The notes under the pieces: generated by a model | What the model was told of the DNA's origin: nothing | What the model saw: the letters and a program-made list of their open reading frames with translations, nothing else | Databases searched by the model: none | Source of the DNA: Mangrovicoccus sp. HB161399 | Lineage (GTDB): Bacteria; Pseudomonadota; Alphaproteobacteria; Rhodobacterales; Rhodobacteraceae | Assembly (NCBI RefSeq): GCF_013184745.1 | Contig: NZ_JAATVU010000039.1 | Span: 1 to 52,540, forward strand | Direction of reading: 5' to 3' | Length of the DNA stretch: 52,540 nt | Made by a program: the position numbers and the translations under genes | In this document: piece by piece, positions 26,849-46,544 of the stretch | Position numbering within the stretch: position 1 is the first letter of the stretch | Layout: every line of letters starts with the position of its first letter

Positions 26849-27628
26849 TCAGTACTGGCGTTCCACCATCATCTTCTTGATCGACGCGATCGCCTTGGCC
26901 GGGTTCAGGCCTTTCGGGCAGGTCTGCGTGCAGTTCATGATGGTGTGGCAGCGGTAGAGCTTGAACGGGTCCTCCAGCGCGTCGAGACGCTCGCCGGTGG
27001 CCTCGTCGCGGCTGTCGATCAGCCAGCGGTAGGCATGCAGCAGCGCCGCCGGGCCGAGATAGCGGTCGCCGTTCCACCAGTAGCTCGGGCAGGAGGTCGA
27101 GCAGCTGGCGCACATCACGCATTCATAGAGGCCGTCGAGCTTCTTGCGGTCCTCGATGGACTGCCTCCACTCCTTGGCGGGGCGGTTGGTCTTGGTTTCC
27201 AGCCAGGGCATGATCGAGGCATGCTGGGCGTAGAAATGGGTCAGGTCGGGGATCAGGTCCTTGACCACCGGCATGTGCGGCAGCGGGTAGATGCGCACGT
27301 CGCCCTTGATCTCGTCGAGGCCGTAGATGCAGGCCAGCGTGTTGATCCCGTCGATGTTCATCGCGCAGGACCCGCAGATGCCCTCGCGGCAGGACCGGCG
27401 GAAGGTCAGGGTCGGGTCGACCTCGTTCTTGATCTTGATCAGCGCGTCCAGGACCATCGGACCGCATTTGTCCATGTCCAGGAAATAGGTGTCGACCCGC
27501 GGGTTCTGGCCGTCATCCGGGTTCCAGCGGTAGATCTGGAACTTGCGGACATTGGTCGCGCCTTCCGGCTTCGGCCACGTCTTGCCCGTGGTGATCTTGG
27601 AGTTCTTCGGCAGCGTGAACTGAACCAT
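26849..27628 (-). CDS. sdhB: Succinate dehydrogenase iron-sulfur subunit
   Basis: A 259-residue subunit of respiratory complex II. The 2Fe-2S motif reads CREGICGSC with a further Cys in NTLACIYG; the 4Fe-4S and 3Fe-4S motifs read [13 protein letters not shown] and [14 protein letters not shown]. It carries electrons from SdhA flavin to the membrane quinone site. It is separated from the upstream GT61 gene by 121 bases holding a hairpin, so it might have its own promoter or depend on readthrough. Confidence 0.97.
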
Positions 27629-29048: not shown

Positions 29049-29371
29049 CTCAGCGGCGGCAGATCGTTGCCGCGCAGGCAGGCTTCTGCCGCGGGACGGT
29101 TGGCGATGGCGATGGCCAGGGTGCGGCGGCTCTTCTCGTTCACCGTCTTCGCCTTGCCGGCGAGGATCATCAGCTCCTCGCCGGTGGCATTCTCGGCGAC
29201 GCAATCGGCCACCTCCGCCGCGGCGGAGGCCGGATAGTCAGGGAAGCTCGCGGCGATGGATCCCGCCGCGAACGGTTCGGCTGCCTGGCGGTCCTCCGCC
29301 GTCGGCGTGCCCGGCTCCTCAGCGGCGCAGGCCGCGAGAAGCAGGACCAGGGAAACCGCCAGCGCCCGCAT
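29045..29371 (-). CDS. Small predicted lipoprotein in the sdh operon
   Basis: A 108-residue protein with a lipoprotein signal ([19 protein letters not shown]; lipobox LAAC, lipidated Cys15). A short mature domain contains a Cys pair (ADCVAENATGEELMILAGKA, then AACLRG). Its ATG overlaps the sdhA stop as TGATG and its own stop overlaps the GT61 start. It is probably anchored in the outer or inner membrane facing the periplasm. I recall an uncharacterised gene at this position in related sdh operons. Confidence 0.75.
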   Translation of the reverse strand: MRALAVSLVLLLAACAAEEPGTPTAEDRQAAEPFAAGSIAASFPDYPASAAAEVADCVAENATGEELMILAGKAKTVNEKSRRTLAIAIANRPAAEACLRGNDLPPLR

Positions 29372-31173
29372 CAGAAGGTCCGCGCCTTCGGCGCGATGGT
29401 CTTCAGGCTGATTCCGCCTTCGGCCTCGGTGGTCAGCGGATCCTTGATCACCGGACGGTAGGTCAGGTCCACCGCGTTCCCGTCCACCCGCATGACGGAA
29501 TGGACGCGCCACTTCTCGTCGTCCCGCTCCGGATAGTCCTCGTGGGCATGCGCCCCGCGGCTCTCGTGGCGGGCTTCGGCGCCGACGATGGTCGCCAGCG
29601 CGTTCGGCATCAGGTTGGTCAGCTCGAGCGTCTCCATCAGGTCCGAGTTCCAGACCAGCGAGGTGTCGGTGACCTTCAGGTCGCCGAGCTTGCCTGCGAT
29701 GGCGGTCATCTTCTCGACGCCTTCCTTCAGCGAGTCCGAGGCACGGAACACGGCCGCATCCGCCTGCATGGTGCGCTGCATTTCCAGGCGCAGATCCGCC
29801 GTCGGCGTGCCGCCCTGGGCATGGCGAAGGCCGTCGAAGCGGTCGAAGGCCTTGTCGATTTCCGACGCCGGCGCCTTCGGGATCGCCGAATTGCGGTCGA
29901 TCACCTCGCCCGCGCGGATCGCGGCGGCACGGCCGAAGACCACGAGGTCGATCAGCGAGTTGGAGCCGAGGCGGTTCGCGCCGTGCACCGAGGCGCAGCC
30001 GGCCTCGCCCACGGCCATCAGGCCCGGAACGACGGCGGTCGGGTTCTCGGCGGTCGGGTTCAGCACTTCGCCCCAGTAGTTGGTCGGAATGCCGCCCATG
30101 TTGTAGTGGACCGTCGGCAGGACCGGGATCGGCTCCTTGTTCAGGTCCACGCCGGCGAAGATCTTGGCGCTTTCCGAAATGCCCGGCAGGCGCTCGGCCA
30201 GCGTTTCCGGCGGCAGGTGGTTGAGGTGAAGGAAGATGTGGTCCTTGTGCTCGCCCACGCCGCGGCCTTCGCGGATCTCCATGGTCATCGAGCGGCTGAC
30301 ATAGTCGCGCGGCGCCAGGTCCTTGTAGGTCGGCGCGTAGCGTTCCATGAACCGCTCGCCTTCCGAGTTGGTCAGGTAGCCGCCCTCGCCGCGGGCACCC
30401 TCGGTGATCAGGCAGCCCGAGCCGTAGATGCCGGTCGGGTGGAACTGCACGAATTCCATGTCCTGCAGCGCCAGGCCAGCGCGCGCCACCATGCCGCCGC
30501 CGTCGCCGGTGCAGGTATGCGCGGAGGTCGCCGAGAAATACGCCCGGCCGTAGCCGCCGGTGGCCAGGACGACCATCTTGGCGTTGAAGACATGCATGGT
30601 GCCGTCATCGAGCTTCCAGCACAGCACGCCCTTGCAGACGCCGTCCTCCATCAGCAGGTCGATGGCGAAGTATTCGATGTAGAATTCCGCGTTGTTCTTC
30701 AGCGACTGGCCATAGAGCGTGTGCAGGATGGCGTGGCCGGTGCGGTCGGCCGCGGCGCAGGTGCGCTGCACGGGCGGGCCTTCGCCGAATTCGGTGGTGT
30801 GGCCGCCGAAGGGACGCTGGTAGATCTTGCCTTCCTCGGTGCGCGAGAACGGCACGCCGTAGTGCTCCAGCTCGTAGACCGCGGCGGGCGCGGAGCGGGC
30901 CAGGTATTCCATCGCATCGGTGTCGCCGAGCCAGTCGGAGCCCTTGACGGTGTCGTACATGTGCCACTGCCAGCTGTCCGGGCCCATGTTCGACAGCGAG
31001 GCGGCGATGCCGCCCTGGGCTGCGACGGTGTGCGAGCGGGTCGGGAAGACCTTGGTCACGCAGGCGGTCTTCAGACCCTGCTCTGCCATGCCCAGGGTCG
31101 CGCGGAGACCTGCCCCGCCAGCACCGACCACCACGACGTCGTAATCGTGGGATTCGTATTCGTAGGAAGCCAT
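29371..31173 (-). CDS. sdhA: Succinate dehydrogenase flavoprotein subunit
   Basis: A 600-residue flavoprotein that oxidises succinate to fumarate. The FAD-binding loop is [20 protein letters not shown] near residue 11; the covalent-flavin His is in [11 protein letters not shown]; substrate-binding motifs [20 protein letters not shown] and the C-terminal [14 protein letters not shown] stretch are intact. It follows sdhD by 23 bases and is coupled to the lipoprotein gene downstream. Confidence 0.97.
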
Positions 31174-31196
31174 TGTCTTCGTATGCTCCGTCTTCT

Positions 31197-31568
31197 TCAG
31201 AGGGCCAGGCGCGCGAGCGCGAACAGCCCGCAGCCGATCGCGAAGTAGGACACGCAGGTGACGGCGATGACCAGCCACTCGCGGACCATGCCGTGCGTGT
31301 AGTCTTCCAGAACCATGCGCATGCCGCGGATGAAGTGCAGGAAGCCGACGGTGATCATCAGCCCGGCAATCACCGAGGGGAAGGGCTTCGCGAAATAGGC
31401 GATGACCTCTTCGTAGGGCTTGCCCAGCTGCGGCCCGAAGGTGAAGAGGAACAGCGGCGTCAGGATGAGCAGCCCGTAGGAGCTCATGGTCATGCGCCAG
31501 AAATTGTCGGTCCCGGTCTTGGCGGACCCCATGCCAACGGCGCGCTTGCGGTCGGTGTAGAATGCCAT
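31197..31568 (-). CDS. sdhD: Succinate dehydrogenase membrane anchor subunit
   Basis: A 123-residue protein with three membrane spans (around [29 protein letters not shown] and [20 protein letters not shown]). The quinone-site motif EDYTHGMVR contains Asp89 and Tyr90, matching the Asp-Tyr of SdhD proteins. Thirteen bases separate it from sdhC. Confidence 0.92.
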
Positions 31569-31581
31569 GATGCGCGTCTCC

Positions 31582-31971
31582 TTACACGATGATCGCGGTC
31601 AGCAGGGTCAGCACGACCGAACCGCCGATGACGATCTTGCCCAGCATCTGCGCCTTTTCCAGTTCCAGGCACTTGCCCGCGTCCCAGATCAGGTGGCGCA
31701 CGCCGGCCAGCGCGTGGTACCACAGCGCCCAGACCGAGAGGAACATGACGAGGTCGCCGAGGTAGCTGGTGACGATCCAGTCGACCATGCCGAAATATTC
31801 GGGTCCGGACGCGGCGGCCAGCAGCCACCAGACGCAGAGCAGAGCGCCCACGATGAGTCCGACGCCCGCGGCGCGGTTCAGGATGGACGTCACGGAGCCG
31901 ATCTGCGGCCGGTAGTACTGTCCAAGCATGAAGGGGGAAAGCGGCCGGTTGCCCCGGTTCACATCAGCCAT
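31582..31971 (-). CDS. sdhC: Succinate dehydrogenase cytochrome b556 subunit
   Basis: A 129-residue anchor with three membrane spans. The N-terminus MADVNRGNRPLSPFMLGQYY leads to the quinone-site region RPQIGSVTSILNRAAGVG. Where enterobacterial proteins have His-Arg this one has Asn-Arg. The heme-ligand region WYHALAGVRHLIWDAG keeps His86. GAGAGGG precedes the ATG. It is the first gene of the sdh operon and lies below the paired-palindrome operator at 32098-32132. Confidence 0.92.
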   Translation of the reverse strand: MADVNRGNRPLSPFMLGQYYRPQIGSVTSILNRAAGVGLIVGALLCVWWLLAAASGPEYFGMVDWIVTSYLGDLVMFLSVWALWYHALAGVRHLIWDAGKCLELEKAQMLGKIVIGGSVVLTLLTAIIV

Positions 31972-32097
31972 GGGTTGCCCTCTCGGAGTTACGCCTTTGG
32001 TCGTTGACTTCGGTCTTAGCACCTTTTGCGGTGTTGTCATCCGCCCCACAATCGCAAAAGCGCGATCTTTTGGCGCAATCAGCGCTAACGGGACCAG

Positions 32098-32132
32098 TTT
32101 GTGATCACACGATCCAAGAGTGTGATCACAAA
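32098..32132. promoter_or_regulatory. Paired-palindrome operator upstream of sdhC
   Basis: TTTGTGATCACAC, a 9-base spacer, then GTGTGATCACAAA: perfect 13 bp inverted arms. Each arm contains the self-complementary TGTGATCACA, with centres exactly 21 bp apart, two helical turns. The same arrangement occurs upstream of sucC. The centre lies about 144 bases before the sdhC start. GTGATCAC fits the yGT-N-ACr half-site pattern of GntR-type regulators, but the regulator is not encoded nearby and remains unidentified. Confidence 0.85.
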
Positions 32133-32593
32133 TAGGAATATGAGCAAAACTCTAAGGATTGCCCGGCGCCGCTGCGGCGCGGAATGAGTCGCGGAAGCGG
32201 GCCGGCCGCCTGCCGGAATCAGTCCGGACGGCAGTCCCGGCCGTGCTCCGGCAGGACCGTGATCGCAGGAGAAAGGGTGCAGGCGCCGCCTGCGGGCCGT
32301 CAACCGGCTCCGGCCGCGATGCCGACCGAGCGGCGGCTTCCGGCCCCGGTGCCGCCTTCCTGCGCAGCAGCCTTGCCGACCTGCCGAAATCCGCGCCGGT
32401 CGCGGCAGCCGGACGGCGGGAGCCGCCAAGGCACCATCCGACGCAACGGGACGGATCGCAGCCCCGGCATGGACCATCCATGCGAAAAGCGGGATTGATC
32501 GGAGGAAACGGGAGAAGCCGGCATCCCCGGAACGTGCGTTCATTGCCGCGCCGCAGGAAGGTGCACCGCCCCTTTCCGGGCGGTGCCGCAGTG
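32133..32593. other. Gene-free stretch between sdh control region and mch
   Basis: These 461 bases lie behind the mch stop and upstream of the sdh operator. Open frames on both strands are Arg/Pro/Gly-rich and without recognisable domains or ribosome-binding sites. The first 30 bases are AT-rich (AATAGGAATATGAGC) and could belong to the sdh regulatory region. I see nothing else. Confidence 0.6.
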
Positions 32594-33631
32594 TCAGAGC
32601 GGCATCAGCGCCCAGTAGTCGAGATCGAGCAGCACTTCTGGCAGGTACTTGCCGTCCTCGCCCTTCAGCTTGCCGGCCTCGGCGCCGGCCTTGACCGCCA
32701 CCAGCCGCAGCCGGATTGCGCCGACGCCGGGGGCGGAGGTCTCCACCTTGTCGAGCACCTCGGACCAGGCCTTGACCGTCAGCCCGGAGAAGGCCGGGTT
32801 GGCATGTGCCCCGCCGTTCAGCCCGACGATCATCTGCGCGTTCGCCAGACCGTTGAAGCTGAGCGCGCGCGCCAGGCTGATGATGTGCCCGCCATAGATC
32901 AGCCGCTGGCCGTCCGGGCGGAAGGTGGCGTCGAAATGGACCTTGGCCGTGTTCTGCCACAGCCGCGTGGCCATCATGTGCTCGGCCTCTTCCAGCGTGA
33001 CGCCGTCGACATGGTCGACGATCTCGCCGATCTCGTAATCCGCCATCCGGTGCGGCTCGCCCGCCAGGGCGAAATCATAGCGGGTGAAATGCAGGCCTTC
33101 GGGAATGGCGAGGGAGCCGGGATCGACGACCTTGGCCAGCTCCGGCACGACCGGCTCCGGCGCAGGCGCGTCGAGGTTGTTCTTGCGGACCATCACCCAG
33201 CGCACGTAGTCGAGCACGACCTCTTCGCGCTGGTTCAGCCCCTTGGAGCGGACATAGACCACGCCGGACTTGCCGTTCGAGTTCTCCCGGAGCCCGATCA
33301 CCTCGGAGGTCGAACGCAGCGTGTCGCCCGGCATCACCGGCTTGAGGAACCGTCCCTCGGCATAGCCCAGGTTGGCGACAGCGTTCAGCGAGATGTCCGG
33401 CACGGTCTTGCCGAAGACCACGTGGAAGGCGATCAGGTCGTCCATCGGCGAGGCCGCGAGACCGCTGGCCCGCGCGAACTCGTCCGAGGAATAGAGCGCA
33501 TGCCGCTCCGGGTAGAGCGCATGGTACATCGCCCGCTCGCCGCCCGACACGGTGCGCGGCACGGCGTGCTCGATCACCTGGCCGATGGAATAGTCCTCGA
33601 AGAACCGTCCCGGATTGGTCTTTGCTGCCAT
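32594..33631 (-). CDS. mch: Mesaconyl-CoA hydratase (beta-methylmalyl-CoA dehydratase)
   Basis: A 345-residue double-hotdog MaoC-type enzyme that hydrates mesaconyl-C1-CoA to beta-methylmalyl-CoA in the ethylmalonyl-CoA pathway. Diagnostic stretches are GRFFEDYSIGQVIEHAVPRT at the N-terminus, GRFLKPVMPGDTLRSTSEVI near 95 and FDATFRPDGQRLIYGGHIIS near 245. The ATG at 33631 follows GGGGAG; a GTG codon directly before it is not needed. It is the last gene of an mcl2-nnrU-DUF1737-mch unit, all late EMC functions or their companions. Confidence 0.93.
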   Translation of the reverse strand: MAAKTNPGRFFEDYSIGQVIEHAVPRTVSGGERAMYHALYPERHALYSSDEFARASGLAASPMDDLIAFHVVFGKTVPDISLNAVANLGYAEGRFLKPVMPGDTLRSTSEVIGLRENSNGKSGVVYVRSKGLNQREEVVLDYVRWVMVRKNNLDAPAPEPVVPELAKVVDPGSLAIPEGLHFTRYDFALAGEPHRMADYEIGEIVDHVDGVTLEEAEHMMATRLWQNTAKVHFDATFRPDGQRLIYGGHIISLARALSFNGLANAQMIVGLNGGAHANPAFSGLTVKAWSEVLDKVETSAPGVGAIRLRLVAVKAGAEAGKLKGEDGKYLPEVLLDLDYWALMPL

Positions 33632-33653
33632 CACTGCTCCCCCGATGGTGTCT

Positions 33654-33869
33654 CTATTGCTGTCCCAGCTTCATGTCCGGCGAATAGGGCGTGTCAATGT
33701 CCTTGGTCACCGCCTGGCCGCAGCGCATCACGCCGTTCGAGGCGTCGAAGGCGTATTGCGGGTCGCCATGCAGCTCCCAGCCCTTCGACAGCGCCTCGCT
33801 CACCTTGTGGCAGAAGGCCGAGGTGTCGTCCTCGGTCAGGAAACGGTAGATCTTCATGTCGTCTTTCAT
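33654..33869 (-). CDS. DUF1737 family small protein
   Basis: A 71-residue protein with the DUF1737 pattern MKIYRFLTEDDTSAFCHKVS, then ALSKGWELHGDPQYAFDASN and CGQAVTKD. The start at 33869 overlaps the nnrU stop (ATGA); an internal Met at residue 5 is an alternative. Function unknown. The short GWxLHG fold resembles small binding domains. Its position between nnrU and mch ties it to the EMC unit. Confidence 0.85.
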   Translation of the reverse strand: MKDDMKIYRFLTEDDTSAFCHKVSEALSKGWELHGDPQYAFDASNGVMRCGQAVTKDIDTPYSPDMKLGQQ

Positions 33870-34414
33870 CCCATCGGATAGTGGCCGGTCCAGATATGGA
33901 GCGCGACCGCGGCGGCATAGAAGACGGCGCCGTAGATCACCGCCTTTAGGTCGCCGCGCTTGTCCTCGACCGGCTTTTCCCAGACCGGTTCGGAGCGGTT
34001 GATGACGATCACCTCGGCCACCGCCCAGCCCAGCATGCCGCCGAAGAGCAGGATCGAGGCGAGATCGCCGTTGACCAGCAGGTGCGCGACCGCCCAGGTC
34101 TTCACCGCCGCCAGCATCGGGTGGCGGATCCGCCGCGCGAGGCCGCCCTTGGCCGGGCCGAGCATCAAGAGGAAGGCCGCCAGGAGCATCAGCGTGTTGT
34201 TGATGTGCGTCATCATTGCGGGCGGGGTCCAGACCGCGACATAGGGCGTCGCGCGGAAGCCGAAGATCATCAGCAGCAGCGATGCCGCCAGCGCGGCGGC
34301 CACGGCGCCCTGCCCGGCCTTGCCCATGGCGGCCCGCTTCTCCGGGCAGACGCGCTTGAAGAGATGCGCCGCGCTCCAGAGCGCGATCCCGGCGAGCAGG
34401 ACAATCCAGGACAT
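33866..34414 (-). CDS. NnrU family membrane protein
   Basis: A 182-residue protein with about five membrane spans and the NnrU signature: WSAAHLFKRVCPEKRAAMG near residue 13, then RRIRHPMLAAVKTWAVAHLL near 95 and FGGMLGWAVAEVIVINRSEP near 123. NnrU was named from nitrite/nitric-oxide reductase loci and is related to isoprenylcysteine methyltransferase-like proteins, but its role here is unknown. Its start codon shares a base with the mcl2 stop. Confidence 0.85.
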   Translation of the reverse strand: MSWIVLLAGIALWSAAHLFKRVCPEKRAAMGKAGQGAVAAALAASLLLMIFGFRATPYVAVWTPPAMMTHINNTLMLLAAFLLMLGPAKGGLARRIRHPMLAAVKTWAVAHLLVNGDLASILLFGGMLGWAVAEVIVINRSEPVWEKPVEDKRGDLKAVIYGAVFYAAAVALHIWTGHYPMG

Positions 34415-35295
34415 CAGGCGACGCCTTCTTCCAGCTTGGCGATGGCCGCGGCCTTCGCGAGGGTCTGCTTGGCGGTCACGATATGCAGGTTCTCCACGAT
34501 CTTGCCGTCTACGATGGCGATGCCCAGCCCCTTGGCCTCGGCCTCTTCATAGGCCGCGATCTGGCGCTGCGCGAGATCGATGTCGGCCGAGGACGGCGCA
34601 AAGGCCTCGTTTGCGGCCTCGACCTGCGCCGGGTGGATCAGGGTCTTGCCGTCGAAGCCCATGTCGCGCCCCTGCGCGCATTCGACCTTGAAGCCCTCCT
34701 CGTCCTTGAAGGCATTGTAGACTCCGTCGACGATGGTGATTCCCGCCGCGCGGGCGGCAAGCAGGCAGAGCTGCAGCGAAGTCAGAAGCGGTTCGCGGTC
34801 TGCCCGGAATCTGGTCATCAGCTCCTTGGCCAGGTCATTCGTGCCCATCACGAATCCGCCCATCCTGGGCGCCTCGGCGATCTCGGCGGCCTTCAGGATG
34901 CCGCGCGGCGTCTCCATCATCGCCCAGATTTCCGTCGACTCGCAGCCCGGCATGGCGTCGAGCACCGCGGCGGCCTTCTCGATCGTGGCAACGCTTTCCA
35001 CCTTGGGGATCAGGATGGCATCGGGCGCGACTGCGGCCATCGCCGTCAGGTCGTCCCCGCCCCATTCCGTGTCGAAACCGTTGATGCGGCAGATCTTTAC
35101 CCTTGCACCGAAGCCGCCGGCCTTGAGCGTCTCGGCCAGCAGGCCGCGGGCGTTCACCTTTTCGTCGATTGCAACCGCATCCTCGAGATCGAAGATGATC
35201 GCGTCGACGGCCAGCGTCTTGGCTTTCTCCAGCGCCCGCTCCTTGGAGCCGGGGATATAGAGAACGGAACGATAGGGGCGTGCGCGTTGATCCAT
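34414..35295 (-). CDS. mcl2: (3S)-malyl-CoA thioesterase / malyl-CoA lyase family (Mcl2-like)
   Basis: A 293-residue HpcH/HpaI-fold protein. RPYRSVLYIPGSKERALEKA and AIIFDLEDAVAIDEK give the CoA/metal-binding N-terminus; IPKVESVATIEKA and AMMETPRGILKAAEI supply the metal-ligand Glu; GFDGKTLIHPAQVEAANEAF is near the C-terminus. The length and the RPRRSVLY-type start fit Mcl2, the (3S)-malyl-CoA thioesterase of Rhodobacter, better than the roughly 318-residue lyase Mcl1. The thioesterase releases malate from malyl-CoA at the end of the EMC pathway. GGAGGA precedes ATG 35295. A lyase activity cannot be excluded without alignment. Confidence 0.85.
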   Translation of the reverse strand: MDQRARPYRSVLYIPGSKERALEKAKTLAVDAIIFDLEDAVAIDEKVNARGLLAETLKAGGFGARVKICRINGFDTEWGGDDLTAMAAVAPDAILIPKVESVATIEKAAAVLDAMPGCESTEIWAMMETPRGILKAAEIAEAPRMGGFVMGTNDLAKELMTRFRADREPLLTSLQLCLLAARAAGITIVDGVYNAFKDEEGFKVECAQGRDMGFDGKTLIHPAQVEAANEAFAPSSADIDLAQRQIAAYEEAEAKGLGIAIVDGKIVENLHIVTAKQTLAKAAAIAKLEEGVA

Positions 35296-35612
35296 GATTC
35301 TTTCCTCCACGGGGCTGCTTTTGTACTTATATTGCGCGGAGGGAAACGCGCTCGCGGCCACTTGCCGCATCGCGGAAAGTCGGGGTGCAACATGACACTT
35401 CCATGTAGGACGCTGGACCGCGCGTGCGGCGGGTTTACCCGATCTTCGATCCCCCGCGCCCAAGCTTCCGTCCGGTGCGGTCCGGCACTGGCCGGCCGCG
35501 GCGGCGGAACGCCCGGAACACGCCCGAATACGACTTGCAACCGGGGGCCCCTCCCCCTGCCGCAACGGTCCGACCCGCAGGCAGGCAAGGCTCCTCCCGA
35601 GAGGACGTAGCG
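35296..35612. promoter_or_regulatory. Divergent control region of mcl2 and periplasmic protein gene
   Basis: No gene is seen in these 317 bases. On the minus strand TATAAG (35331-35326) is a good -10 hexamer about 31 bases before the mcl2 start, but no matching -35 is evident. GAGAGGA before 35613 serves the plus-strand gene. The middle (35430-35580) is GC-rich and featureless. Confidence 0.4.
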
Positions 35613-35924
35613 ATGAAGACGACCCTGACAAGCCTCTGCCTGGCGCTTTTCGCCACCGCGGCCTTCGCGGTCGAGGAACAGCCGAGAAACTGCGCCGACC
35701 GCGACGCCGTGCTGAAGCGGCTGTCCGGAAATTACGGCGAAACCCGCCAGAGCGTCGGCATCGGCGCGAACAACTCTCTGGTGGAGGTCTTCGCCTCCGA
35801 CAAGACCGGCACCTGGACGATCACGGTGACCATGCCCGACGGCATGACCTGCCTGATCGCGTCCGGTCAGGCCTATGAAAAGCTGATCCACGACAAGCTG
35901 CTGCAGCCCGGCGACGACGCCTGA
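35613..35924 (+). CDS. Small periplasmic protein, unknown function
   Basis: A 103-residue protein with a clear signal peptide (MKTTLTSLCLALFATAAFAV, cut after AFA). The mature part of about 84 residues has two Cys (RNCADRD, GMTCLIASG) likely forming a disulfide, and the stretch LSGNYGETRQSVGIGANNSL followed by VEVFASDKTGTWTITVTMPD, like small all-beta periplasmic proteins. A similar gene stands near mcl2 and mdh in related genomes as far as I recall. No function is assigned. Confidence 0.8.
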   Translation: MKTTLTSLCLALFATAAFAVEEQPRNCADRDAVLKRLSGNYGETRQSVGIGANNSLVEVFASDKTGTWTITVTMPDGMTCLIASGQAYEKLIHDKLLQPGDDA

Positions 35925-37357
<1,433 letters not shown>

Positions 37358-37395
37358 TCAGGGCTTGCGCTCCCCCCGGGGAGTTGCTTTCACGG

Positions 37396-37421
37396 AAGGG
37401 GCCGCATCTGCGGCCCCTTTT
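37396..37421 (+). terminator. Rho-independent terminator after mdh
   Basis: AAGGGGCCGCA (37396-37406) pairs with TGCGGCCCCTT (37409-37419) in an 11 bp stem, followed by T residues. It ends 16 bases before the next gene, so that gene either depends on readthrough or has a promoter overlapping the terminator. Confidence 0.85.
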
Positions 37422-37436
37422 GCGTGAGGAGAGACC

Positions 37437-38297
37437 ATGCCCTGGGCCACCCCCGACAGCCTCGCCCCCGCCTCCTGCGGCTTCGTGCTGGCCGCGTCGG
37501 GGCGCAAATACGCCACCGCCGCCGAGGCCGCGGCGCGCAGCCTGCGGCAGTCGAACCCGGATTTCGAGGTCGACATCTTCACCGACCAGGAGGTGGACGC
37601 CGGGCTCTTCGGACAGGTCCACAAGCTCGACAAGAGCTGGTTCCGCCCGAAATTCGAGGCGCTGATCCGCTCGCGCTTCGACCGGACGATCTATCTGGAT
37701 GTCGATCTCGTCGTACTGGGCGACATGTCGGACGTGTTCTTCATCCTCGGCAAATACGACATCGCCGCGGTGCAGGCGACGAACCGCAACCAGGGCTTCG
37801 CCTGGAAGCCGTGGCGCCTGCCCCTGCCCAACGCCTTTCCGCAGATCAACGGCGGCATGATCGCGATCCGGCGGAGCGAGGCAATGCAGCAGTTCCTGGC
37901 CGGCTGCCAGCAGGCGATGGTCGATCACGGGCTGAAGCGCGACCAGCCCGTCTTCCGCGAGATGCTGTGGACCAGCGACCTGCGGCTGCACATCCTGCCG
38001 CCCGAATACAACGTCCGAAACCGCACGCTCTGGCAATATGGCGGCTCGAAATTCGCCGCGCCGCGGGTGCTGCACCATACCGGCTTCGTCGCGCGGATGA
38101 AGGACGACCGCACGCCTGTCCGCCCGGAACAGATCTACGGGCGCGGCTTCGTCAAGCACGTGAAGCGCCTGATCGCCGCCGACCGGCAGCTGACGCCCGG
38201 CGCCAAGGGCAGCGTCCCGGCCCCGCAATACGACAACATCCTCTTCCGCGGCCGCGACTGGCTGGAGGCGAAGTTCGGCGGGAAGAAGAAGGGTTGA
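37437..38297 (+). CDS. GT-A-fold glycosyltransferase-like protein (GT8-like)
   Basis: A 286-residue protein with a GT-A nucleotide-sugar fold. The N-terminal region ATAAEAAARSLRQSNPDFEV leads to the D-x-D motif in RTIYLDVDLVVLGDMSDVFF near residue 84, and NAFPQINGGMIAIRRSEAMQ resembles the acceptor-binding region of family 8 and related transferases. A late GGSKFAAPRVLHHTGF stretch contains a likely metal-ligand His. No membrane span. Donor and acceptor unknown. It is convergent with another glycosyltransferase-like gene. Confidence 0.75.
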   Translation: MPWATPDSLAPASCGFVLAASGRKYATAAEAAARSLRQSNPDFEVDIFTDQEVDAGLFGQVHKLDKSWFRPKFEALIRSRFDRTIYLDVDLVVLGDMSDVFFILGKYDIAAVQATNRNQGFAWKPWRLPLPNAFPQINGGMIAIRRSEAMQQFLAGCQQAMVDHGLKRDQPVFREMLWTSDLRLHILPPEYNVRNRTLWQYGGSKFAAPRVLHHTGFVARMKDDRTPVRPEQIYGRGFVKHVKRLIAADRQLTPGAKGSVPAPQYDNILFRGRDWLEAKFGGKKKG

Positions 38298-38300
38298 GCC

Positions 38301-39389
38301 TCACCCCTCCGGCGGCCAGAGGCCGGCCAGTTCGGGATCGGCCCGACGCCGCGTCTCCGGCGCGCCGCAGAGCGGGCGCTTCCACCCGGTGGTCGCGGCC
38401 CGGCAGTGCAGCAGCTCGAAGCCCGGATGCGGCCGCAGCCGCTTCGTCAGCGGCGCGGCGAGCTTGTGCACTTCCCAGCCCGCGCGGCTGAGCAGGCCCC
38501 GCGGCGTGGCGCACCATTTCAGGTGGCATGGCTCGCGCGGCACGGCACGGAATACATGCGCCCGCTGCGGCTGCGGCCAGGGCAGGCCTTCCTCCGGATA
38601 GACCCAGGTGCCTCCGAGCTTCGCATGGCCCAGCGGACTGGCCGCCGCTGCGTCGAAGACCGACTGGCCGGAGACCGGGCGCAGCAGTTCGTCCACGTCA
38701 AGATTGAGCACCGCCCGCGCCCGCGCCAGCACGGTCAGCCGCGCAAGGTTCAGGCAGGCGCCCTGCAGGAAATGCGAGACCTGCCCGCGGCGGCGCGGCA
38801 ACTGCGGACCGTAGGGGAAATCCGCCTCGATCACCGCGACCGGACCGATGCCGGGGATGTCCGCCAGGCGCGGCGCGATCCCGGCCGCCGGGTACCGGAC
38901 GGAGCCGTTGTCGAAGATCGCGACCGCATCCGCGCCGTGCAGCCGGGCATGGAACCGCACCCAGTCGAGGACCCAGTCCGGCGGATTGTCCCGGCTCATG
39001 GTCAACAGCACGTTGCGACCGGCGAAGATGCCGCTGAGATCGGGACCAACCGGCAGCTCCGCGGGCCCGCCCGGAAGCTGCATGCCGAGCCGGCCGTGGC
39101 TGCCCGGCAGGAAGACCGCCTCGGAACTGGCGAAGCGGCGGCGGCGCGCGCCCGGCGGCAGCGCCGCCCGCAGCACCGGCCAGAGGTTGAACAGGCGCGG
39201 GCAGCAAAGCACGGCGCCCCGCCCGCCCGGCAGGCGCGCGGCGGCATAGGCCAGCGTGCGGCCGTCATAGGCGTCGGCATAGCCCGGCGGCTGGAGGTCC
39301 GGCGGCCAGACCGGATCGCGCCGCACTGCCGCTTCGGCGGGCAGCGCCAGTCCCTGCAGCCGCCAATGCACCGCCTGCCCCAAGGTCAC
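38301..39389 (-). CDS. Glycosyltransferase family 92/2-like protein
   Basis: A 362-residue protein. The core LLTMSRDNPPDWVLDWVRFH, then GADAVAIFDNGSVR and the D-x-D motif ARAVLNLDVDELLRP near residue 220, is typical of GT92 (DUF23) and related GT2-type transferases. The C-terminus has Cys/His residues (HLKWCATPRGLL, ELLHCRA). It has a long N-terminal part without recognised domain. It is divergent from sucC, with the paired-palindrome operator 137 bases from its start codon, so it may share that control. Confidence 0.75.
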   Translation of the reverse strand: MTLGQAVHWRLQGLALPAEAAVRRDPVWPPDLQPPGYADAYDGRTLAYAAARLPGGRGAVLCCPRLFNLWPVLRAALPPGARRRRFASSEAVFLPGSHGRLGMQLPGGPAELPVGPDLSGIFAGRNVLLTMSRDNPPDWVLDWVRFHARLHGADAVAIFDNGSVRYPAAGIAPRLADIPGIGPVAVIEADFPYGPQLPRRRGQVSHFLQGACLNLARLTVLARARAVLNLDVDELLRPVSGQSVFDAAAASPLGHAKLGGTWVYPEEGLPWPQPQRAHVFRAVPREPCHLKWCATPRGLLSRAGWEVHKLAAPLTKRLRPHPGFELLHCRAATTGWKRPLCGAPETRRRADPELAGLWPPEG

Positions 39390-39524
39390 AGCTTGCCACC
39401 CCGGCGTCCCCGCCCCCGGCGGAGCGTCTCCGCGACGCGGGTGATTCGGCGCTCCGGCCTGTTAGCGCCCGCGGCCGTCGGCACATTTTTGCCAGTCCCG
39501 CATGTCATTCCTGCAACCCGCGCC

Positions 39525-39563
39525 GATTTGTGATCACACATTTCGGGGGTGTGATCACAAATC
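39525..39563. promoter_or_regulatory. Paired-palindrome operator upstream of sucC
   Basis: GATTTGTGATCACAC and GTGTGATCACAAATC form perfect 15 bp inverted arms around a 9-base spacer. The two TGTGATCACA cores are 21 bp apart centre to centre, exactly as upstream of sdhC; the spacer sequences differ, which argues for selection on the arms. The centre lies about 126 bases before the sucC start and 155 bases from the divergent glycosyltransferase start. Confidence 0.85.
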
Positions 39564-39669
39564 CGATTTTTTTCCCTGAACGCCTCAATTGGCGGAAATT
39601 TTCTGTTCAAAGGATGCGCCGCCCGGTGTTTAGACGGAACTACAACTTGCACAAGACGGGACAGCTTTC

Positions 39670-40863
39670 ATGAACATTCATGAATACCAGGCGAAAGCCC
39701 TTCTCCGCGACTACGGCGCTCCGGTGTCGGACGGTCGCATCGTACTGAAAGCGGAGGAAGCGAAGACCGCCGCAGGCGAACTCGAGGGCCCGCTCTGGGT
39801 CGTCAAGGCGCAGATCCATGCCGGCGGCCGCGGCAAGGGTCACTTCAAGGAGGAATCCGCAGGCGAGAAGGGCGGCGTCCGCCTCGCGAAATCGGTGGAG
39901 GAAGCCGCAGAGGAAGCCCAGAAGATGCTGGGCCGCACCCTCGTCACCCACCAGACCGGCCCGGCCGGCAAGCAGGTCAACCGCGTCTACATCGAGGCAG
40001 GCTCCGGCATCGAGACCGAGCTGTACCTGGCGCTGCTCGTCGACCGCCAGACCTCGCGCATCTCGTTCGTCTGCTCGACCGAGGGCGGCATGGACATCGA
40101 GGAAGTCGCAGCCTCGACCCCCGAGAAGATCCTGTCCTTCTCCGTCGACCCGGCCACCGGCTACCAGCCGTATCACGGCCGCCGCATCGCCTTCTCGCTG
40201 GGCCTGAAGGGCCCGCAGGTGAAGCAGTGCGTCGCGCTGATGGGCAAGCTCTACCAGGCCTTCGTCGAGAAGGACATGGAGATGCTGGAAATCAACCCGC
40301 TGATCGTGGCCGAAGGCGGCGACCTGAAGGTTCTGGACGCGAAGCTGGGCTTCGACGGCAACGCCCTCTACCGCCACCAGGACATCATGTCCCTGCGCGA
40401 CGAGACCGAGGAAGACGCCAAGGAACTGGCCGCTTCCAAGTACGACCTGAACTACATCGCGCTCGACGGCGAGATCGGCTGCATGGTGAACGGCGCGGGC
40501 CTGGCCATGGCGACGATGGACATCATCAAGCTCTACGGCGCGGAGCCTGCCAACTTCCTCGACGTGGGCGGCGGCGCGACCAAGGAGAAGGTGACCGAAG
40601 CCTTCAAGATCATCACCTCGGACCCGAACGTGAAGGGCATCCTGGTGAACATCTTCGGCGGCATCATGCGCTGCGACGTGATCGCGGAAGGCGTGATTGC
40701 GGCGGTGAAGGAAGTCGGGCTGAAGGTTCCGCTGGTCGTCCGTCTCGAAGGCACCAACGTCGAGAAGGGCAAGGAGATCATCAACACCTCCGGCCTCGAC
40801 GTGATCGCGGCGGACAACCTGTCCGACGGCGCCGAGAAGATCGTGAAGGCCGTCAAAGGCTGA
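39670..40863 (+). CDS. sucC: Succinyl-CoA synthetase beta subunit (ADP-forming type)
   Basis: A 397-residue ATP-grasp subunit: [20 protein letters not shown] at the N-terminus, the nucleotide loop [14 protein letters not shown] near 50, [10 protein letters not shown] near 207 and [14 protein letters not shown] near 335. It binds nucleotide and succinate while SucD binds CoA. It follows the operator region and precedes sucD by 35 bases, which include an AAGGAG site for sucD. Confidence 0.97.
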
Positions 40864-40898: not shown

Positions 40899-41783
40899 AT
40901 GGCTGTCCTCGTTGACGAAAACACCAAGGTCATCTGCCAGGGCATCACCGGCTCGCAGGGTACCTTCCACTCCGAGCAGGCCATCGCCTACGGCACCAAG
41001 ATGGTCGGCGGCGTGACGCCCGGCAAAGGCGGCACGACCCATCTCGACCTGCCGGTCTTCAACTCCGTGCACGAAGCCAAGCACGTGACCGAAGCCAACG
41101 CGTCGGTCATCTACGTGCCGCCGCCCTTCGCCGCGGACTCGATCCTCGAGGCGATCGACGCCGAGATGGAGCTGATCATCTGCATCACCGAGGGCATCCC
41201 GGTCCTCGACATGATGAAGGTGAAGCGCGCCCTGATCGACAGCAAGTCGCGCCTGATCGGCCCGAACTGCCCGGGCGTCATCACCCCCGACGCGTGCAAG
41301 ATCGGCATCATGCCGGGCCACATCCACAAGCGCGGCCGCGTCGGCGTCGTGTCCCGTTCGGGCACGCTGACCTACGAAGCCGTGAAGCAGACCTCGGATC
41401 TGGGCCTCGGCCAGTCCTCGGCTGTCGGCATCGGCGGCGACCCGATCAAGGGCACCGAGCATATCGACGTCCTGGAAATGTTCCTCGCCGATGACGAGAC
41501 CGACGCGATCATCATGATCGGCGAAATCGGCGGCTCGGCCGAAGAGGACGCGGCGCAGTTCCTCGCCGACGAGAAGAAGAAGGGCCGCTGGAAGCCGACC
41601 GCGGGCTTCATCGCCGGCCGCACGGCTCCTCCGGGCCGCCGCATGGGCCACGCAGGCGCCATCGTCGCCGGCGGCAAGGGCGGTGCCGAAGACAAGATCG
41701 CCGCGATGGAAGCGGCAGGCATCGTCGTCGCAGACAGCCCCGCCACCCTCGGCGAGGCCGTTCTGAAGGCAATGGGCAAGTAA
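40899..41783 (+). CDS. sucD: Succinyl-CoA synthetase alpha subunit
   Basis: A 294-residue subunit with the CoA-binding Rossmann part ([20 protein letters not shown] near residue 10), [20 protein letters not shown] near 125 and the phosphorylated His in [15 protein letters not shown] near 250. With SucC it makes ATP (or GTP) and succinate from succinyl-CoA. Two hairpins follow the gene. Confidence 0.97.
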
Positions 41784-41850: not shown

Positions 41851-42085
41851 ATACCCCGAGGCTACGTCTCAGACCAATGGGACCAGGAAACGCGATCAGA
41901 GCCCGTGACTTGCAGCCGGCAGCCCCCGTGGTGCGCCGGCCGCGCGGTCTCCGCTGGCAGTTCCGCGGATGTCCGGTGCTGACATCCGACACATTGTACC
42001 TACCTAGCACCTCAGCGTCCGGACAGTCCCTGCCCGGCTCCGCCGGACCAACTCCATTGGGTTGCAACCCCCGAGAGGCACAGCC
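41851..42085 (+). promoter_or_regulatory. Leader region of sucA
   Basis: These 235 bases after the sucD terminator should carry the sucA promoter. CTGACA at 41979-41984 is a plausible -35 but a -10 cannot be fixed. No copy of the TGTGATCACA operator is present here. GAGAGG at 42073-42078 is the ribosome-binding site of sucA. Confidence 0.4.
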
Positions 42086-45049
42086 ATGACCGAAATGAGC
42101 AAGAACGACATATTCCATGCCTCCAGCTTTCTGCAGGGCCAGAATGCGGAGTATATCGAGCAGCTCTACGCGATGTATGCGAACGACCCGGCCAGCGTGG
42201 ATGCGGCATGGGCGGACTTCTTCGCCTCGCTGGGGGATGCGGAAACCGACGTGAAGGCCGAGGCCAAGGGCGCCTCCTGGGGCCGCATGGACTGGCCGCC
42301 GACGCCGAATGACGACCTGACCCAGGCGCTGGACGGCCAGTGGGCCGCCCCGGCGGTGGAGATGAAGGCCGCGGGCGACAAGATCAAGGCGAAGGCCGCC
42401 GAGAAGGGCGTCTCGGTCTCCGACGACGCGGTGAAGCGCGCCGTGCTCGACTCGGTCCGCGCGCTGATGATCATCCGCGCCTACCGCATCCGCGGCCACC
42501 TGGTCGCCGATCTCGACCCGCTCGGCATGCGCAACCCGACGCCGCATCCCGAGCTCGACCCGAAATCCTACGGCTTCACCGATGCCGACATGGACCGGCC
42601 GATCTTCATCGACCAGGTGCTGGGCCTGCAGCTGGCGACGATGCGCCAGATCATGGCAATCGTGAAGCGCACCTATTGCGGCACCTTCGCGCTGCAGTAC
42701 ATGCACATCTCCGACCCCGAGCAGGCCGGCTGGCTGAAGGAGCGGATCGAGGGCTTCGACAAGGAGATCACCTTCACCCGCGAAGGCCGCCGGGCGATCC
42801 TGAACAAGCTGGTCGAGGCCGAGGGCTTCGAGAAGTTCCTCCATGTGAAATACATGGGCACCAAGCGCTTCGGCCTCGACGGCGGCGAAGCGCTGATCCC
42901 CGCGATGGAGCAGATCATCAAGCGCGGCGGCAACCTGGGCGTCAAGGAGATCGTCATCGGCATGCCGCACCGCGGCCGCCTGAACATCCTGGCGAACGTG
43001 ATGCAGAAGCCGTACAAGGCGATCTTCAACGAATTCCAGGGCGGCAGCTTCAAGCCTGAATCCGTCGACGGCTCGGGCGATGTGAAGTACCACCTCGGCG
43101 CCTCCTCGGACCGCGAATTCGACGGCAACTCCGTCCACCTGTCGCTGACCGCGAACCCCTCGCATCTCGAGGCGGTGAACCCGGTCGTGCTGGGCAAGGT
43201 CCGCGCCAAGCAGGACCAGTTCAAGGACCCGACCCGCACCGCCGTCATGCCGATCCTGCTGCACGGCGACGCGGCCTTCGCGGGCCAGGGCATCGTGGCG
43301 GAATGCTTCGCGCTTTCCGGCCTGCGCGGCCACCGCACCGGCGGCACCATGCATATCGTGGTGAACAACCAGATCGGCTTCACCACCGCGCCGCATTTCT
43401 CGCGCTCCTCGCCCTACCCGACCGACAACGCGCTGGTCGTCGAGGCGCCGATCTTCCACGTCAACGGCGACGACCCCGAGGCCGTGGTCCACGCCGCCAA
43501 GGTCGCGACGGAATTCCGCCAGAAATTCGGCAAGGACGTCGTTCTCGACATCTTCTGCTACCGCCGCTTCGGTCACAACGAGGGCGATGAACCGATGTTC
43601 ACGCAGCCCGAGATGTACACCAAGATCAAGCGCCACAAGACCACGCTGCAGCTCTACACCGAGCGGCTGGTCAAGGACGGGCTGATCCCCGAGGGCGAGA
43701 TCGAGGACATGAAGGCGCAGTTCCAGGCGCTGATGAACGAGGAGTTCGAGGCCGGCAAGGAATTCAAGCCGAACAAGGCCGACTGGCTGGACGGCCGCTG
43801 GTCCTCGCTCGACCAGGAAGGGCAGGAATACCAGCGCGGCCAGACCGGCATCAAGGAAGAGACCTTCCATGAAATCGGCCGCGCGCTGACCCAGATTCCG
43901 GACTCGGTGCACACCCACAAGACCATCGGCCGCTTCATCGGCGCCCGCGCCGAGATGTTCGAGACCGGCAAGGGCTTCGACTGGGCGACCGCCGAGGCAA
44001 TGGCCTTCGGCTCGCTGCAGACCGAGGGCTACCCGGTGCGCCTCTCGGGCCAGGACTGCACCCGCGGGACCTTCTCGCAGCGCCATTCCGGCCTGGTCGA
44101 CCAGAAGACGGAAGAGCGCTACTACCCGCTGAACCACATCCGCGAGGGCCAGGCCAATTACGAGGTGATCGACTCGGCGCTGTCGGAATACGCGGTGCTG
44201 GGCTTCGAATACGGCTACTCGCTGGCCGAACCGAACGCGCTGGTCCTCTGGGAAGGCCAGTTCGGCGACTTCGCCAACGGCGCGCAGATCATGTTCGACC
44301 AGTTCATCTCCTCGGGCGAACGCAAGTGGCTGCGCATGTCGGGCCTCGTCTGCCTGCTGCCGCACGGCTTCGAGGGCCAGGGTCCGGAGCACAGCTCGGC
44401 GCGCCTCGAGCGCTTCCTGCAGCTCTCGGCGGAGGACAACTGGATCGTGGCGAACTGCTCGACCCCGGCGAACTACTTCCACATCCTGCGCCGCCAGCTG
44501 CACCGCAACTTCCGCAAGCCGCTGATCCTGATGACGCCGAAATCGCTTCTGCGCCACAAGCTCTGCGTGTCGGAAACCAAGGACTTCACCGAGGGCTCCA
44601 GCTTCCACCGGGTGCTGAAGGACCATGCGGATATCGGCGAGCATCCGGCCAAGCTGGCATCCGACGACAAGATCAAGCGCGTCGTGATGTGCTCGGGCAA
44701 GGTCTACTACGACCTGCTCGAAGAGCGCGACGCGCGCGGCATCGACGATGTCTACCTGCTGCGGATCGAGCAGTTCTACCCGTTCCCGGCGATGAGCCTG
44801 GTGGACGAGCTGCAGCGTTTCCGCGGCGCCGAGATGATCTGGTGCCAGGAAGAGCCGAAGAACCAGGGCGCCTGGACCTTCATCGAGCCGAACATCGAAT
44901 GGGTGCTCGAGAAGATCGGCGCCTCCCACAAGCGGCCCCGCTATGTCGGACGCGCCGCCTCGGCCTCGCCGGCGACCGGCCTGGCCAGCCAGCACAAAGC
45001 ACAGCAGAACGCGCTCGTGAACGAAGCGCTTACGACCGAAGGGAACTGA
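42086..45049 (+). CDS. sucA: 2-oxoglutarate dehydrogenase E1 component
   Basis: A 987-residue thiamine-diphosphate enzyme. The N-terminal helix ([20 protein letters not shown]) binds E2; [15 protein letters not shown] lies near 134; the ThDP region contains [15 protein letters not shown] and [20 protein letters not shown] near 393. The C-terminal transketolase-like part has [20 protein letters not shown]. It decarboxylates 2-oxoglutarate and transfers succinyl groups to SucB lipoyl. ATG 42086 follows GAGAGG; TTG at 42062 or ATG 42095 are less likely starts. sucB begins four bases after the stop. Confidence 0.96.
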
Positions 45050-45053
45050 GAGA

Positions 45054-46544
<1,491 letters not shown>

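Follow-up and report, generated by a model that had tools for sequence, protein, structure and literature searches.

Paired palindromes upstream of sdhC and sucC in Mangrovicoccus sp. HB161399 as highly probable operators of the GntR-family regulator AkgR

Two paired palindromes were found in a 52,540-nucleotide stretch of the Mangrovicoccus sp. HB161399 genome (contig NZ_JAATVU010000039.1; hereafter the window), one upstream of the succinate dehydrogenase operon (sdh) and one upstream of the operon for succinyl-CoA synthetase and 2-oxoglutarate dehydrogenase (suc). We consider it highly probable that both are operators of AkgR, a previously described citric-acid-cycle activator with a GntR helix-turn-helix and an FCD domain that is encoded elsewhere in the genome (G000:C56:3631-4260). 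The palindrome TGTGATCACA occurs four times in the window, as two pairs of boxes:

32098-32132, candidate paired palindromic operator 5' of sdhC, boxes 32100-32109 and 32121-32130, 21 bp apart
39525-39563, candidate paired palindromic operator 5' of sucC, boxes 39529-39538 and 39550-39559, 21 bp apart

No additional match to TGTGATCACA was present in the window at ≤1 mismatch (0.79 expected), and none of 100 shuffled windows reached four copies. The first site has an architecture of 13+9+13 bases and the second of 15+9+15 bases, with unlike spacers (GATCCAAGA and ATTTCGGGG, respectively) and a box period of 21 bp in both. An earlier note on this DNA, made from the sequence alone, had described the two matching pairs with their arms of 13–15 bp, unlike 9-base spacers and 21-bp distance, and this description was exact. 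The sites lie 126 bp from the start of sdhC (31971, minus strand) and 106 bp from that of sucC (39670, plus strand), and both contain the palindromic core GTGATCAC.

The genome (7.18 Mb) contains 11 exact copies of TGTGATCACA, four of them in the window. The remaining seven had no partner at 21-bp spacing within 3 mismatches; six fell within mechanically drawn open reading frames (ORFs) and one, in L003, lay between them. Lone boxes were rejected as extra targets on these grounds. A search of the whole genome for the paired pattern, as the earlier note had proposed, gave nothing besides the two window sites at ≤3 mismatches.

Of 295 family genomes (roughly one for each genus, 294 sampled genera), 258 carried the same pattern, usually as two matches. 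A reversed-pattern control matched three of them. Together with the shuffles and the genome scan, this ruled out a chance origin of the pairs. In a sample of 142 genomes of the class, the pair (≤2 mismatches) was absent from all 140 genomes of other families, the two genomes with the pair being the source genome and one member of its family. Conservation before orthologous genes, the absence of which the earlier note would have counted as a refutation, was assessed at 80 loci found via SucC, the first 31 of which (L044-L074) belong to Rhodobacteraceae or similar bacteria. With a spacing of 20–22 bp and ≤4 mismatches as the criterion, the pair was located 5' of sucC in 30 of these 31 relatives, ending 95–119 bp before the start codon. 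A match to sdhC was obtained in 21 of the 31, and the pair preceded it in 20 (exception: L071). No two boxes within 60 bp were detected at any of the 49 more distant loci (L075-L123). The sole sucC locus of the 31 relatives without the pair was that of Roseovarius sp. 217 (L061).

The spacing was strict. Among the matches listed (71 family genomes, centres 10–40 bp apart), 61 of 75 exact GTGATCAC pairs were spaced at 21 bp and three at 20 bp, the other 11 being scattered over eight spacing values. A looser count over all 80 SucC loci yielded 45 pairs at 21 bp, four at 20 bp and three others. The bases between the arms were variable among aligned relatives. Three boxes in a row with a 21-bp period were observed in four genomes (G285:C18:4906-4957, G135:C8:374317-374368, G125:C13:509113-509164 and G197:C6:255056-255107), the third box having 1–2 mismatches.

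The earlier note had proposed that a GntR-type regulator, encoded outside the window, binds the pairs. A domain search returned 51 FCD-domain hits in the window genome, none of them on the window's contig, so that an FCD regulator adjoining the operators was rejected and the note's placing of the regulator outside the window is correct as far as FCD-domain GntR proteins go. Nine of the 31 relatives carry a GntR/FCD gene approximately 8–11 kb beyond sucC on the opposite strand. Its orthologue in the window genome (G000:C56:3631-4260) matched the query at 77% identity, against 36% for the second-ranking hit, and shared 154 of 210 residues with the R. sphaeroides-like protein. Matches to PF00392 (55.4 bits) and PF07729 (66 bits), both above the cut-off, identified a GntR helix-turn-helix and an FCD domain. 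Orthologues (E≤1e-45) were present in 269 of the 295 family genomes, in a search that scored up to 10 candidates per genome so that a few misses are possible, and in none of the 140 genomes of other families in the class sample. Pair and regulator co-occurred: 251 family genomes had both, 7 the pair only, 18 the regulator only and 19 neither (counts tallied by hand, six unlisted genomes being derived by elimination). The Fisher p value of 1.9e-14 is too small since the genomes are related. The co-occurrence bears out the GntR assignment.

FCD-domain GntR regulators have operators of the form GT-N4-AC. The regulator shares its GntR helix-turn-helix and FCD domain with McbR, PdhR and LldR. Its nearest solved relative by sequence was McbR (4p9f, E=6.6e-20), and its scores against named NCBIfam models (PdhR, LldR, others) were far under the curated cut-offs. 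FCD domains usually carry metal-binding histidines; in 31 aligned AkgR sequences, the last of these appears to be an aspartate that forms part of an invariant R.D motif, a difference that may matter for the ligand.

The regulator was named by gene order. We take AkgR to be RSP_0981 of R. sphaeroides, and we take genome G051 to be R. sphaeroides-like from its 100% match to the R. sphaeroides reaction-centre L subunit. The order in G051 was lpd, sucB, sucA, sucD, sucC, pair, mdh, several ORFs, pair, sdhC, sdhA, sdhB, a small ORF and the GntR gene on the minus strand, with the pairs at C4:2729961 and C4:2734765. Family models were used to check lpd, sucA, sucC, mdh, sdhC, sdhA, sdhB and the GntR gene; the others were named by eye. 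Published work on R. sphaeroides numbers 2-oxoglutarate dehydrogenase as RSP_0965-62, succinyl-CoA synthetase as RSP_0967-6, Mdh as RSP_0968 and succinate dehydrogenase as RSP_0974-6, and predicts control of the sdh, suc (sucCD) and 2-oxoglutarate dehydrogenase genes by RSP_0981, a GntR protein (PMC4344238). The GntR gene of G051 fits RSP_0981 by gene order, set against this numbering. By this comparison with published numbers, not by a labelled sequence, the conserved regulator appears to be RSP_0981. The core GTGATCAC has been attributed to the activator AkgR (PMC6365646), and the window sites are very probably landing sites of that protein. The earlier note was largely right; it missed earlier descriptions of both the regulator and its motif (AkgR/RSP_0981).

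Since the operator belongs to an already known regulator, the novelty is modest. The R. sphaeroides AkgR regulon resembles the present case in the GTGATCAC core, the GntR family and the targets sdh, sucCD and 2-oxoglutarate dehydrogenase; it differs in that the operators are described here as 21-bp pairs, helically phased and family-wide. What is added to known AkgR regulation is the strict 21-bp spacing, the helical phase between the pair and the sdh promoter, and a single-box layout alongside the paired one. No publication describing strict pairing, phasing or two layouts was found, the original AkgR paper standing outside this comparison, and a literature search on GntR, sdh and Rhodobacteraceae returned no paper. 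An operator and its regulator can be named for two central-metabolism operons across 294 sampled genera, in most of which they are present.

The position of the pair relative to the sdh promoter would fit activation. A core promoter could be predicted from aligned upstream regions:

32013-32040, minus strand, predicted sdhC core promoter: ATGACA (32040-32035), 16 bp, TAAGAC (32018-32013); hexamer pair kept in aligned relatives

A GTGACA-like hexamer was common to the sdh upstream regions, mostly 16 bp before a TA-rich hexamer. Among 21 sequences, from the window and 20 relatives, 17 agreed within 4 bp in the distance from pair to hexamer; three others were shifted by about one or two turns and L074 was without such a hexamer. 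The exact pair pattern followed by GTGACA at a gap of 41–71 bp was found in 105 of the 295 family genomes. The gap was 58–59 bp in 71 of these and 55–62 bp in 86. The 19 outliers, at 44 bp (1), 48–49 bp (5) and 66–71 bp (13), were mostly about one helical turn off, and none of 200,000 random placements equalled their phase at 10.5 bp. Assuming the usual distance between –35 hexamer and start, the box centres fall at approximately –98 and –119 relative to the predicted sdhC transcription start. A strict sigma-70 consensus scan detected nothing in either intergenic region, shuffled sequences likewise giving only 0.1.

We hypothesize that each TGTGATCACA would hold one AkgR dimer and that two dimers would sit on one helix face, two turns apart, possibly binding co-operatively. 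The earlier note's idea of two dimers on one face gains from the strict 21-bp spacing and the phasing to the sdh promoter. This geometry would fit an activator working from one helix face; the pair at sdhC would most likely activate a weak promoter from approximately 98 and 119 bp upstream, and sucC-sucD-sucA-sucB would be activated in the same way. Most described FCD-type GntR members repress, so the pair offers a clear test case for far-upstream activation by an FCD-type protein.

A different arrangement was observed at the regulator's own gene. The best 30 orthologues by score were fetched and 29 parsed; a single box preceded the regulator gene in 22 of the 29 loci and a pair in none. In 17 of the 22 the distance from the end of the box to the start codon was 7–8 bp, and in 19 the box followed a TTGAC within 35 bp. 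Among eight named loci, five had an exact core, one a core with one mismatch and two no core. The box thus lies just 5' of the akgR start codon in many relatives, over the predicted –10 region, which suggests that AkgR represses its own synthesis and that the mRNA is nearly leaderless. In several loci TTGAC shares some of its bases with the preceding gene's stop codon and may be kept because of this overlap.

One protein may use two fixed layouts family-wide. The first would be a phased two-turn pair far upstream, through which an obligate dimer-of-dimers activates the succinyl-CoA and succinate steps; the second would be a single box with a nearly leaderless mRNA and self-repression. In some genera the pair would move as a module to neighbouring genes of the cycle. 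We hold this combined proposal tentatively, at slightly less than even odds. In G042, a pair additional to the main pairs was located 5' of fumC (L236 1993-2023). In G289, a pair preceded lpd (L246 1490-1520), with a single box before akgR within the same 6-kb stretch. These two were the sites before cycle genes among five third sites inspected (L236, L237, L246, L247 and L248); fumC encodes the cycle enzyme following succinate dehydrogenase. L237 and L248 were rejected as new regulon sites, being located inside ORFs, and so was L247, which had no clear gene and lay close to the end of a contig. Two sites considered as third ones, L238 and L239, were the main pairs of their genomes. Three or more pair matches were found in 27 genomes, 24 of them among the matches listed; in 8 of these 24, a match overlapped another by 21 bp, corresponding to a third or weak box, and many others were 3-mismatch matches.

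Several observations weigh against the AkgR model. The regulator was found without the 21-bp pair in 18 of the 295 genomes and the pair without the regulator in 7; some of these cases are incomplete assemblies, and G009 and G069 carry 20-bp pairs instead. A by-eye count revealed a second regulator match in about 40 genomes, so that a paralogue could share the site, and kinship among the genomes makes all p values too small. As to the phasing, periods of 10–11.5 bp fit the gap outliers about equally well, and the search covered gaps of 41–71 bp, larger ones falling outside. The core promoter of sucC could not be placed from aligned upstream regions. Finally, akgR of the window genome has no self-regulatory box, and neither has that of G051.

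Two alternatives are about equally improbable, and we give each a small chance. The sites could be used by a different GntR/FCD paralogue, the AkgR orthologue being merely equally widespread. The window genome has 51 FCD-domain hits, G210 has a second copy at 43% identity, and a protein only 32% identical to AkgR is proposed to use the same GTGATCAC core (PMC6365646). Against this, it is the AkgR orthologue that co-occurs with the pair (co-occurrence was computed for this orthologue alone), that often has a box on its own promoter and that matches RSP_0981 by position. Alternatively, AkgR could repress rather than activate at these operators, which we judge similarly improbable. Many FCD regulators do so, and the single akgR box resembles a repressor site. 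The sdhC pair, however, is too distant from the predicted start, at approximately 98–119 bp, for a direct block of the polymerase; its phase to the sdh promoter is maintained; no strong sigma-70 match was detected, though shuffles also gave few; and AkgR is termed an activator in print (PMC6365646). Least probable is an RNA hairpin or structural DNA feature in place of a protein operator: the arms are perfect inverted repeats, but the self-complementary cores and the 21-bp period are kept while the spacers vary, and the sdh copy, which lies before the predicted start, would not be part of the sdhC transcript.

Besides AkgR, the regulator CceR may act at sdh. CceR-like sequences were scanned at ≤3 mismatches with GTTAGCGCTAAC, which we take to be the CceR consensus. 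Of 94 matches, 16 fell between –120 and +180 bp of the pairs, approximately an 8-fold higher density than in the remaining sequence, which would fit joint AkgR/CceR control of sdh. One candidate lies 5' of sdhC:

32078-32089, strand not assigned, ATCAGCGCTAAC, possible CceR site with 2 mismatches to the consensus

The strict printed form [AGT]GTTN6-8AAC[ACT] (PMC4344238) was absent from 31972-32150, 5' of sdhC, and had one match before sucC (39627-39641). In R. sphaeroides, CceR (RSP_1663) is, like AkgR, predicted to control sdh (PMC4344238) and is its partner in central carbon metabolism; it differs in its motif (GTT-N6-8-AAC) and its protein family (LacI). Succinate dehydrogenase is listed in the CceR regulon of R. 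sphaeroides, not in that of Paracoccus denitrificans (PMC11323563).

The operons behind the two sites were confirmed by family models as sdh and suc, as the earlier note had stated:

31582-31971, minus strand, sdhC, cytochrome b556 subunit, first gene of the sdh operon (Sdh_cyt, TIGR02970)
31197-31568, minus strand, sdhD, membrane anchor (TIGR02968)
29371-31278, minus strand, ORF containing sdhA, flavoprotein (TIGR01816, from residue 44)
26849-27628, minus strand, sdhB, iron-sulfur subunit (NF004616)
39670-40863, plus strand, sucC, succinyl-CoA synthetase beta subunit, first gene past the second operator (family models)
40899-41783, plus strand, sucD (family models)
42062-45049, plus strand, sucA, 2-oxoglutarate dehydrogenase E1 (family models)
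45054-46544, plus strand, sucB, E2 component (family models)

The genuine start of sdhA is probably inside the ORF at 29371-31278. Between the operators, a mesaconyl-CoA hydratase-like and an HpcH/HpaI (citrate lyase-like) gene were located on the minus strand (32594-33634 and 34414-35631).

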